From: Chloroflexota bacterium
Lineage (GTDB): Bacteria; Chloroflexota; Dehalococcoidia; GIF9; UBA5629
Length of the DNA: 38,174 bases
Direction: 5' to 3'
NCBI GenBank assembly: GCA_016865895.1
Contig: VGNY01000008.1
Coordinates: forward strand, 1-38,174
Both the position numbers and the translations under genes were made by a program. Below the pieces are notes generated by a model that did not search any database, had not been told where the DNA came from, and was given only the letters and a program-made list of their open reading frames with translations. Within the stretch, counting starts at the first letter, position 1, and every line of letters begins with the position of its first letter. Positions 17,890-21,809 of this stretch are shown piece after piece.

Positions 17890-18735
17890 ATGATTAGAGC
17901 AATCGCGTCCTGGAAAATAGTTGTTCTTCTAAAAAGGACAATTCAGGAGTTTACCACCGATAACTGTCCACTGCTTGCCGCAGCCATTTCCTATTATTTG
18001 CTTCTCTCACTGTTCCCTTTTTTACTGGCAATAGTATCCATAGCTAGCTTTTTCATAGATGCACCATCACTACAGGAACAAATATTTAGGGCCTTCAAAT
18101 ACTTGATTCCTGTATCACAGGATTTTATACAAAATATCATCAATAGCGTGATTGCTACGCGTGGAGCTGTAGGTATCATATCCATCATCCTGCTGCTTCT
18201 GGGCTGTTTTGGATTTTTCAATGCGCTAAGGAAATCAATAAACACAGCATGGGGAATTCACAAAACCAGTTCGATTATACGAAGTCAGCTAACCAATTTC
18301 GCTATGATTCTCGGAATTGTCTTGCTTCTATTCATTTCTCGTTTGATAACCGTAATTCTGAATATGAGCAGCACCATTCTAAACGCAATCATAGCTCAGC
18401 CAGTGACCTATTTAGTCCTGTTACATCTTTCAATCGTTACTATTGATATTGCTCTTGCCTTCTTGGTATTTCTTATCATCTACAAATTACTACCGGAACG
18501 CCGAATTAAATGGAGAGACGTCTGGGCCAGTGCTCTGGTAGGTGCAGTTTGCTTCGAGATAATAACAATTGTATTTATCTTATATTTGGATACATTTAAC
18601 CCTTATAATCTGATATATGGTTCAATCGGCGCTATCATAGCCTTCCTGATATGGACATATCTTGCTGCATTTATCCTTCTCTTTTTCGCTAAAATTTCAG
18701 CGGTTAACCTGAGTATTAAAGCTGAAAAACTATAG
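17890..18735 (+). CDS. YihY/virulence factor BrkB family membrane protein
   Basis: LLKRTIQEFTTDNCPLLAAAISYYLLLSLFPFLLAIVSIASFF...; multiple TM segments; IYGSIGAIIAFLIWTYLAAFILLF. Confidence 0.92.
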   Translation: MIRAIASWKIVVLLKRTIQEFTTDNCPLLAAAISYYLLLSLFPFLLAIVSIASFFIDAPSLQEQIFRAFKYLIPVSQDFIQNIINSVIATRGAVGIISIILLLLGCFGFFNALRKSINTAWGIHKTSSIIRSQLTNFAMILGIVLLLFISRLITVILNMSSTILNAIIAQPVTYLVLLHLSIVTIDIALAFLVFLIIYKLLPERRIKWRDVWASALVGAVCFEIITIVFILYLDTFNPYNLIYGSIGAIIAFLIWTYLAAFILLFFAKISAVNLSIKAEKL

Positions 18736-18772: not shown

Positions 18773-19417
18773 TCATTTGCGGTCAGGATGGCCGGCAGAT
18801 TCATGCTGCCCCCTCATAGCAACCTCGACAGCACGGCGATATAGCTCTAGTGGAACTGCACCTTCCAAAGATGAACCACCGGAAAATATAGTTGTCGGGA
18901 CACCAATGACAGACCCATTCTGCCTGGCCTCCCTGTAATCATCAAGAACTAGCTTTTCTCCTACCCGGCAGTCGAGGTCATGTGTCAACTGCTCCACATC
19001 CAATCCTATATCTGCAGCTATCGAAATAAGCACTTCACGGCGAGAAATATCGCGGCATTGCTCAAAAACTGCCCGAAATATCGCCATATGATAAAGCGCA
19101 AACCTATCACGGTCTCGAAGTTCCACACACTTGGCTGCTTTTAGTGCAGGAAGGCTGGATGATGGAAGGTCTTCTAAATCAGGCCAGGGTCGAAAGATTA
19201 GCGATGGCTCTTCTTCACTGGCTCTTGCCCAAACTCCAGCAAGATAGCTATTAAAGCGGCGCCCAGGTACATCATCCACCACCAGTGGATAGGCTTTCCA
19301 GAATATCTCAATTCCCGGGGCAAACTCCTGTTTCAACCGCTCTAGCCGCAACGCGGCTACATAGCACCAAGGTCAGAGATAGTCTGAGTAAACGGTGACA
19401 ATTAGCCCCTCTCCCAT
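18773..19417 (-). CDS. DsbA/FrnE-like thioredoxin-fold oxidoreductase, candidate selenoprotein (UPWC; UGA at 19373-19375)
   Basis: Frame reads MGEGLIVTVYSDYL[TGA]PWCYVAALRLERLKQEFAPGIEIFWKAYPL...SVIGVPTTIFSGG: TGA replaces the first Cys of CPWC, cis-Pro GVPT is present, and reading continues in frame. Confidence 0.82.
19343..19359 (-). promoter_or_regulatory. Putative bacterial SECIS hairpin immediately 3' of the UGA
   Basis: Minus strand TAGCCGC-GTT-GCGGCTA: perfect 7-bp stem, 3-nt loop starting with G, loop 20 nt after the UGA. Confidence 0.7.
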
Positions 19418-19501
19418 AGCTGTATGCCCAATTGACAACCTCTACCCCCACCCATACCAAAAGAAAGACTCCAAGTTACGCAGACTTAAAGTAGTCGTCG
19501 G

Positions 19502-20698
19502 TCATTTAAGCTGGTCTCTGGAATAATCAAGTACTCGCCGCGCCACTATAAGCATGTTAATCTGGCCTGTGCCCTCAAAGAGGTCGTTTATCTTAGCATC
19601 GCGCATCCACTTTTCAAGGAGGTTTTTCCTGGAATAGCCCAGCGGCCCCATAATTTCAACCGCCTTCTGGGTAATCTTGGTGATTGCCAACCCTGCTTTT
19701 GCCTTGGCCATTGATGCCTCCAGGTTATTAGCTTGAAACTGGCTCATCATCCATAATGACCGCAATGTCAACAGTTTGGCTGCCTTGTAATTAGCCTCCA
19801 TATCCATTACATCCCGCTCAAGAGCGGTCAGCTTTTGACGCGGCAATCCATAGCGTATTTCAATACCTTCCTTCTCCAAAGTCTCTTTGACGAAATCTAA
19901 AGCGGCACGCCCCACACCCAGAGCCTGAGCTGCTACAATAGGTCGTGTGGCATCGAAAGTAGCCATTGCTCCTTTAAAGCCCTTGGTGCCAGCCTTATCT
20001 ACCTTCCTGACTTCGGGGCTACCCAGTATGTTTTCATAAGGGATTCGACAGTTATCGAAGACAATGGTGGCAGTGTCGCTGGCTCTTATCCCAAGCTTTT
20101 TCTCCAGCTTCTCTACCCTCATCCCCGGAGTTCCAGCTTCCACCACAAATGACTTCATGCCTGCTCGTCCTGCCGATTTGTCCACAGTTGCCCAGACCAC
20201 CACAAAACCATCGGAATCCTCCAAAGCCCTCTTCCCCCAAGTGACAAATATCTTCTCCCCGTTAAGCACCCATTCATCGCCACCGCGCACCGCAGTGGTG
20301 GTGATAGCAGAGGTATCAGAACCGCAACCAGCTTCAGTCATAGCCATAGCACCCCATTTCGGCTTGCCCTCGTTAAAGCGAGTCAGAAACCGCTCCATCT
20401 GCTCCTTAGTCCCACTGGCAAAAACAGCAGCACCACCAAGCCCGGGACCAGGAATGCACAAGTAAAGACCAGCATCGCCCCAGCAAAGCTCCTCGGTTCT
20501 GAGCGCTGCTGTTATGTCCAAGCCAACAGATAAAGCACCTTCACGCCTTCTCTCCCACAGCGTGTCAATGAGTTGCTGTGGGCTGTCATGTTCATGCTCA
20601 TCATAGTAACGGCTGACAGGCCGAAACATCTCCTCTGCGAACTTGTGAGCTGCCTCTATCGCCTCTTTCTGTTCCGGTGTCGGTTCAAAATCTATCAT
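19502..20698 (-). CDS. Acyl-CoA dehydrogenase (start trimmed to MIDFEPTPEQ)
   Basis: MAMTEAGCGSDTSAITTTAVRGGDEWVLNGEKIFVTWG...; KIYQ-like C-terminal region ITQKAVEIMGPLGYSRKNLLEKWMRDAKINDLFEGTGQINML. Confidence 0.93.
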   Translation of the reverse strand: MIDFEPTPEQKEAIEAAHKFAEEMFRPVSRYYDEHEHDSPQQLIDTLWERRREGALSVGLDITAALRTEELCWGDAGLYLCIPGPGLGGAAVFASGTKEQMERFLTRFNEGKPKWGAMAMTEAGCGSDTSAITTTAVRGGDEWVLNGEKIFVTWGKRALEDSDGFVVVWATVDKSAGRAGMKSFVVEAGTPGMRVEKLEKKLGIRASDTATIVFDNCRIPYENILGSPEVRKVDKAGTKGFKGAMATFDATRPIVAAQALGVGRAALDFVKETLEKEGIEIRYGLPRQKLTALERDVMDMEANYKAAKLLTLRSLWMMSQFQANNLEASMAKAKAGLAITKITQKAVEIMGPLGYSRKNLLEKWMRDAKINDLFEGTGQINMLIVARRVLDYSRDQLK

Positions 20699-20714
20699 TC
20701 TGTTATTCCTCCTT

Positions 20715-21809
20715 CTATACGATAGCCATGCCGTCAAAGGTGGCAAATCCACGACCATTCCTCAGCCATAGTTCGACCGGGTGCTCCCGAATGTAACCAT
20801 GTCCACCTAAAATCTGCACAGCTCTGTCGGTTACCATTACCACCATATCATCGGCATAGGTCTTCACCAAAGAAGTTTCCTTGGTTGCCTCCTCTTTACG
20901 GTCCAGTTTCCAGGCAGCCTCCCAGCTCATCAATCTTGTGGCATCAATCTCAATAGCCATCTCCGCCAACATGAAAGCGATTGCCTGGCGAGCAGCAATA
21001 GGCTCGCCGAAGGCGACACGTTCTTTGGCATAGTCTCTGGAATACTCAAAAGCCGCTTTGGCTACCCCCACAGCCATCGCCGAGAGTGCCACCTTTGAGC
21101 AGTTCAGAATCCGGTTAAAATCGCACCCTCCCCCACCACCAAGTCGATTTTCTTTAGGAACACGGCAGTTCTTAAGGGCAAGCTCATAAGTAGCTAGAGC
21201 TCTTATCCCCATATTACTTTCTCGCCCACCGACCTCCAACCCCTTGGTGCCCTTCTCGATGATGAAGCCCTGAGTGTTGCCATTTTCAGCGGCATAGACA
21301 AGGAGCAGGTTAGCATCAGCAGCCAACGGAACATAACATTTTTGCCCATTAATAACGTAGTTGCCGTCTTTGAGGCTGGCAGTGGTTGAAAGAGAGTAAG
21401 GGTCAAAACCAAATTTAGGCTCAATTAGAGCGGCGGTTGCTGCTTTATAATTATCGCCGCAAAAAGCAGGTAGGTATTTCTTCTTCTGCTCATCGGTGCC
21501 CATTTCCAGAATAGAATTAACTACCAGGGCAGGGCAGAGTATATGCATTGCTATAGAGAGGTCACCCCAGGCTAGCTCCTCAGCAATCAGCGAGCCTGTA
21601 ATAGCCGAATGTTCCCCACCACCCCCACCATACTCCTCGGGTATGCTGGTAGAAACAAGTCCCAGTTGCCAGGCAGTGTTGACAATACGGTCAGGTATCT
21701 CTCCGCTTTCATCGCACTCCCTGTAGTGTTTCCTCATTTCATCGTTAGCAAATTGTTGCACCATCTTAACTATCATCTGCTGTTCTTCAGTGGGACTAAA
21801 CGAAATCAT
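20715..21809 (-). CDS. Acyl-CoA dehydrogenase
   Basis: MISFSPTEEQQMIVKMVQQFANDEMRKHYRECDESGEIP...EEYGGGGGEHSAITGSLIAEELAWGD...DRAVQILGGHGYIREHPVELWLRNGR. Confidence 0.92.
   Translation of the reverse strand: MISFSPTEEQQMIVKMVQQFANDEMRKHYRECDESGEIPDRIVNTAWQLGLVSTSIPEEYGGGGGEHSAITGSLIAEELAWGDLSIAMHILCPALVVNSILEMGTDEQKKKYLPAFCGDNYKAATAALIEPKFGFDPYSLSTTASLKDGNYVINGQKCYVPLAADANLLLVYAAENGNTQGFIIEKGTKGLEVGGRESNMGIRALATYELALKNCRVPKENRLGGGGGCDFNRILNCSKVALSAMAVGVAKAAFEYSRDYAKERVAFGEPIAARQAIAFMLAEMAIEIDATRLMSWEAAWKLDRKEEATKETSLVKTYADDMVVMVTDRAVQILGGHGYIREHPVELWLRNGRGFATFDGMAIV

Follow-up and report, generated by a model that had tools for sequence, protein, structure and literature searches.

We propose that a 7-bp hairpin lying 3' of an in-frame UGA on the minus strand of the DNA analysed here (a stretch of 38,174 nucleotides, referred to in the following as the window) is a bacterial SECIS, which directs selenocysteine (Sec) insertion at this UGA into a DsbA-type oxidoreductase, and we consider this explanation as a whole very probable. 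The family to which the gene belongs contains either Sec or Cys at the same codon, and the hairpin tracks the UGA, which makes the family a clean natural experiment on a SECIS.

An in-frame UGA at the active site of a DsbA-family protein

The gene and its active-site features, all positions being those of the window, are as follows.

18773–19417, minus strand: predicted DsbA-family (thioredoxin-fold) selenoprotein gene, 214 residues, ATG at 19417, stop TGA at 18775–18773
19373–19375, minus strand: predicted Sec codon UGA, residue 15, first position of UPWC (from the alignment of homologues)
19364–19375, minus strand: UPWC redox motif, at the CxxC position of DsbA/FrnE proteins (from the alignment)
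18896–18898, minus strand: codon of Pro174, the proline of GVP, invariant in alignments A1 and A2

Translated with the UGA as Sec, the protein reads MGEGLIVTVYSDYL-U-PWCY... The UGA at 19375–19373 shares its frame with an ORF called from 19351, and this frame is undisrupted both before and after the UGA. Upstream of the UGA there are 22 open codons, including the ATG at 19417 that was picked as the start from the alignment (the alternative start in this frame is TTG at 19438); past the UGA, no further lesion interrupts the frame before its end. Homology runs across the UGA, whose codon falls into the invariant active-site Cys column of both A1 and A2. In the 24-row alignment A1, Asp8, Tyr9, Cys/Sec11, Pro12, and Pro170 of GVP are invariant (numbering of the first row of A1); the corresponding residue of the window protein, Pro174, is presumably the one that occupies the cis-proline place of thioredoxin folds. 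A gene caller that takes the UGA as a stop misses this active site, and the listed ORF begins within the hairpin.

The protein is positive for Pfam DSBA (PF01323; E 3.2e-22; 79.7 bits, cut-off 25.6), and an AlphaFold model computed from 30 aligned rows, comprising the window protein and its relatives, has a mean pLDDT of 94.6. Solved structures with the most similar folds are, among others, a putative disulfide isomerase (2in3), SCO1869, FrnE, YjbH, DsbM, and GST kappa, and SCO1869 and FrnE are also the nearest solved sequences. Since no leader precedes the first strand, the protein is apparently cytosolic. The in-frame UGA almost certainly encodes selenocysteine at a DsbA-type active site.

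Geometry and stability of the hairpin

The structure under consideration is the following.

19343–19359, minus strand: putative SECIS hairpin, 3' of the UGA, 7-bp stem, loop GUU, −10.0 kcal/mol

A preliminary description of this DNA had claimed a UGA followed by a 7-bp perfect stem with a GTT loop at a spacing of 20 nt, and its coordinates proved exact. Read along the minus strand from 19375, the TGA is followed by 13 nt, the first arm (19359–19353), the loop GTT (19352–19350), and the second arm (19349–19343); all seven pairs are Watson–Crick, and the distance from the UGA to the first base of the loop is 20 nt. It had also claimed a fit to the bacterial SECIS (bSECIS) consensus, and this was confirmed with the model limits given in a part of PMC13188914: an apical loop of 3–9 nt with an upper stem of 4–16 bp, a G among the first two loop positions, a UGA-to-loop distance of 16–37 nt, and a folding energy of −7.5 kcal/mol or lower. 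The window hairpin passes all four (3-nt loop and 7 bp; G first; 20 nt; −10.0 kcal/mol), and the sequence of its loop, GUU, is also compatible with G[G/U]N.

The folding check and the assertion that such a hairpin is not expected beside a random nonsense mutation each held in part. RNA folding of a 61-nt stretch placed the hairpin in both the MFE and the centroid structure, but the overall stability of this stretch is ordinary (z −0.86, 39 of 200 shuffles being equally good). The stability of the hairpin alone was reached just once in 500 synonymous, codon-preserving shuffles (p 0.002). Counting both strands, however, the window contains 1368 TGA triplets, and bSECIS-like hairpins of −7.5 kcal/mol or lower accompany 30 of them, those of −10.0 kcal/mol or lower 11. 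Taken alone, the hairpin could arise by coincidence at about one TGA in 100 and is no proof, so that its weight rests on its position in the gene and on the comparison between species.

The 11 equally stable cases lend something to a different reading, in which a nonsense mutation in a decaying gene gave rise to the UGA and the hairpin simply results from the codons for Ala-Ala-Leu-Arg-Leu in the helix that follows the active site. The result of the synonymous shuffles argues against this, as does a frame that is otherwise free of lesions, and the comparison of homologues described below weighs on it from both sides.

A search of the whole window with Rfam at gathering cut-offs produced no SECIS match. 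Its sole match was a tRNA at 277–340 (33.1 bits), which is absent from the ARAGORN output.

The hairpin accompanies UGA but not Cys codons

In a survey of 393 genomes of the class, the source genome included, we found a homologue in 188; among the matches listed, the TGA version is present in 98 of the 130 genomes with a homologue (again including the source genome). A part of the listed TGA matches was fetched and pooled with Cys loci from a contig scan. Excluding one tblastn piece and exact duplicates resulted in a set of 130 distinct sequences, which at the aligned codon have TGA in 59 (the window included), TGC in 51, and TGT in 20. Besides the window, the codon is thus TGA in 58 and TGC or TGT in 71 distinct homologues. 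In the contig pattern scan itself, all 61 loci had Cys at this codon, but as one of its patterns spelled the Cys as TGY, this count is not used as evidence on Sec.

The nearest relatives by E-value among the matches listed (L072–L074) have Cys and lack the hairpin, and no TGA relative among the matches listed exceeds about 46% identity to the window protein. As these nearest relatives have TGC, and as the window comes from a single metagenome-assembled genome (MAG), one might suspect that a true TGC or TGT was turned into TGA by an error of sequencing or assembly. However, an aligned TGA in 58 other distinct sequences, together with a hairpin of the kind seen in TGA and not in Cys sequences, leaves an error of this kind a next to negligible probability.

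To be counted in our MFE-loop test, a sequence had to form, within nt 10–46 from the UGA, an apical loop of 3–9 nt with a G in its first two bases and at least 4 bp, the loop being located 18–24 nt past the codon. Hairpin comparisons used 70 of the 71 Cys rows, one being too short. The test was passed by 56 of the 59 TGA sequences, leaving three without a fitting MFE loop, as compared with 15 of the 70 Cys sequences (Fisher p 1e-18). At control offsets of at least 30 nt in the same genes, the mean was 23% in both groups, and single offsets reached at most 53% (TGA) and 43% (Cys); the rate seen in the Cys group is therefore background.

Measures of stability gave a similar contrast. The best unbulged bSECIS hairpin had a median of −8.9 kcal/mol in the 59 TGA sequences and −3.05 kcal/mol in the 70 Cys sequences (Mann–Whitney p 1e-11), and it reached −7.5 kcal/mol or lower in 44 and 12 of them, respectively. 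The synonymous-shuffle test was passed singly at 0.05 by 27 of 59 TGA but only 8 of 70 Cys sequences. Since related rows are not independent, these p-values overstate the certainty, and we rest the argument on the size of the contrast and on the control offsets.

A few GC-rich Cys relatives (L017 and L018) are an exception, as they form a 5-bp version of the hairpin simply from coding Ala-Ala-Val-Arg. The hairpin sequence is consequently not diagnostic, whereas the statistical contrast between TGA and Cys sequences is. For a decaying gene with a hairpin that merely follows from its coding sequence, one can cite these relatives and a genome of the same family that has lost the gene except for a short relic (see below); nevertheless, with a loop in place in nearly all TGA sequences but in the Cys sequences at background rate, and with TGA at the same codon in all those other distinct sequences, we regard it as very improbable. 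The preliminary description had named conservation among UGA orthologues, and absence from Cys orthologues, as the points on which its interpretation would turn, and apart from the 5-bp exception both were borne out. Reading the hairpin as the SECIS of a selenoprotein is supported by these results.

The hairpin persists through considerable variation in sequence. Loops among the TGA genes include GUU, GGU, GUG, GUC, GAG, GGA, and CGUGC, as well as others, and the G-loop hairpin is retained over peptides as different as VAALRL, VAAVRL, IGLVRV, IGKGLV, IAARRV, MAVSGL, and NAAVWL. Compensatory changes, suggested earlier as a further check, are evident in one group of sequences. In four TGA sequences in which IGKGLV replaces IGLVRV (L124, L130, L159, and L160), the stem is preserved by changes on both sides that encode different amino acids. 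IGL-type sequences as a whole kept 255 of 288 pair cells with TGA (36 rows) and 92 of 160 with Cys. In the register test, whose slightly different rules admit 37 TGA rows, sliding the register lowered the count from 261 to 83–171 of 296, and the correct register was unmatched in 500 shuffles; the Cys group of this type also beats its own shuffles (0 of 500), though by little. In the AAVR-type group, to which the window belongs, the exact window pairing is found in only 51 of 77 TGA cells (Cys: 122 of 238), because several members have bulged or shifted stems.

Selenocysteine machinery in the source genome and in the class

The MAG from which the window derives is 96% complete, with an estimated contamination of 8.9%, and encodes its sel genes on contigs other than that of the window.

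C92:4936–5028: tRNA-Sec, 72.7 bits; ARAGORN tRNA-SeC, anticodon UCA
C92:6050–7888: SelB, full, 349 bits
C92:7978–8694: SelA, C-terminal half, 262.1 bits
G000:C73:2831–3757: SelD (L169), 397 bits, one in-frame TGA

The tRNA-Sec, the full SelB, and the partial SelA share one contig. SelA, which falls 5.8 bits short of its curated cut-off (267.9 bits), is apparently cut off by the contig end. The genome thereby contains what is required of a bSECIS host, namely SelB, tRNA-Sec, SelA (in part), and SelD. The SelD of the source genome is itself predicted to be a selenoprotein; its in-frame UGA, which as read by eye lies within SGAG-U-ASKLGPGDL, has a 7-bp hairpin of its own with a G-bearing loop.

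If a suppressor tRNA or near-cognate read-through decoded the UGA as Cys or as some other amino acid and not as Sec, this would agree with the Cys found at this position in 71 homologues, and non-standard UGA-reading tRNAs exist in nature. Such decoding nonetheless seems extremely improbable to us, given that a tRNA-Sec with anticodon UCA, SelA, SelB, and SelD are all present in the genome, that the hairpin contrast between TGA and Cys sequences requires a SelB-like reader, that SelD has its own UGA and hairpin, and that two other tRNA loci checked with ARAGORN are Leu (TAA) and Ser (TGA anticodon).

Within the class, tRNA-Sec was detected in 257 of 393 genomes. Among the matches listed, it was found in 89 of the 98 genomes with the TGA version but in only 10 of the 32 with Cys alone (p 1e-10); nine TGA genomes gave no tRNA-Sec match in this search, which used strict filters, and several of them are incomplete MAGs. 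Some genomes (G207, G212, G150, and others) have two tRNA-Sec matches each, in part with equal scores, which are perhaps assembly duplicates.

Neighbourhood, descent, and switching between Sec and Cys

The gene is flanked in the window by the following two genes.

19502–20758, minus strand: acyl-CoA dehydrogenase, upstream neighbour (Pfam); not conserved beside the examined relatives of the class
17890–18735, plus strand: YihY/BrkB membrane protein, convergent neighbour (Pfam BrkB)

The neighbourhood of the examined loci gave no functional lead, as the neighbours differ, comprising acyl-CoA dehydrogenase, DprA with topoisomerase, a metallo-beta-lactamase fold, a Cdc48-like AAA protein, UbiA, and a short-chain dehydrogenase. 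In a test for contamination, two neighbours in the window had their best matches, at 82–87% identity, in genomes of the same family.

A search of 59 near-relative genomes left 58 without a match and produced one weak partial match. In one genome of the same family (G003; L174, G003:C4), the order of the flanking genes is retained, with a nucleotide identity of about 79%, but the stretch corresponding to 18848–19503 is missing, and by eye about 20 codons resembling the 3' end of the gene remain. Given the kept flanks and the 3' relic, the gene seems native to the lineage and lost in this genome, where it was most likely ancestral and then deleted. The same genome retains its tRNA-Sec despite the missing gene.

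In a tree of 117 of the 130 rows (root arbitrary), 10 changes between Sec and Cys are needed, eight of which are forced by well-supported branches. We tentatively suggest, as a possibility that falls somewhat short of being probable, that there is a large class-wide group of cytosolic DsbA/FrnE-type selenoproteins, whose tested members reach the cut-off of no NCBIfam model, in which Sec and Cys have been switched several times and in which the SECIS has helped to shape the protein. The comparison shows a wide spread of a DsbA-type selenoprotein in a group known mainly through metagenomes.

Proposed mechanism

In the mechanism that we propose for the bacterial SECIS, the short, G-bearing loop of the hairpin would be bound by SelB carrying GTP and Sec-tRNA(Sec) as the UGA, 20 nt before the loop, enters the ribosomal A site. 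SelB would deliver selenocysteine at this UGA, and translation would continue to the stop UGA at 18775–18773. The product would be a thioredoxin-fold oxidoreductase of about 24 kDa whose active site is UPWC and which lacks an evident signal peptide; Sec would act as its attacking residue. Most likely, this is a thiol-disulfide or glutathione-linked cytosolic oxidoreductase of the DsbM/FrnE/GST-kappa kind, a role and compartment that we infer.

Comparison with known DsbA-like proteins

FrnE of Deinococcus radiodurans and SCO1869 of Streptomyces have SDIACPWCY at the active site, at the place that matches that of the window protein. These two proteins, DsbM of Pseudomonas, and GST kappa have folds like that of the window model (TMq 0.69–0.82), but are just 14–24% identical to the window protein in structural alignments and contain Cys or Ser in place of Sec, GST kappa being a Ser enzyme. 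Membership in FrnE was rejected on the basis of length and identity.

No NCBIfam model at its curated cut-off covers the window protein or any of five tested relatives. The nearest model is NF041057, the Rcas_1661 family thioredoxin-like (seleno)lipoprotein, to which residues 70–194 of the window protein are related (E 1.4e-11); the five relatives from the class score 23.6–48.9 bits. Membership was rejected because the score of the window protein, 44.5 bits, is well below the cut-off of 190, and the lipoprotein-type leader of that family is not seen in it.

A literature search limited to titles and the starts of abstracts found no report of this group in Chloroflexi or Dehalococcoidia, which is weak evidence; in the parts seen, PMC4959059 covers formate dehydrogenases and other dehydrogenases, and PMC5424206 concerns an unrelated cysteine pathway.

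Nine sequences of DsbA-like UxxC selenoproteins (COG2761), with a predicted SECIS, were described from the Sargasso Sea selenoproteome in 2005 (PMC1088965, in part), and DsbA-like selenoproteins of Anaeromyxobacter, Desulfovibrio desulfuricans, and Desulfotomaculum are included in a 2006 survey (PMC1794560, in part). A 2026 review, in the part available, distinguishes DsbA-like protein forms 1 (PF01323) and 2 (DxxUP) (PMC13188914). The window protein shares D-x-x-U-P with form 2, but as its second Cys is kept (UPWC), it fits form 1. Three TGA relatives (L116, L123, and L158) have U-P-x-V or U-P-x-A without a second Cys, like the DxxUP form as given in that part of the review.

The window protein agrees with the DsbA-like UxxC proteins, or form 1, as described in the available parts of PMC1088965 and PMC13188914, in belonging to PF01323, in having Sec first in UxxC, and in having a bacterial SECIS 3' of the UGA; its Sec codon stands at the first Cys of a CxxC motif that has Cys in 71 homologues, as expected of a UxxC selenoprotein. 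It differs from the known UxxC proteins in coming from an uncultured lineage, its named relatives being Dehalococcoidia and Chloroflexi. DsbA-like UxxC selenoproteins are thus already known, and the protein described here is a sound fresh example that would use the same mechanism.
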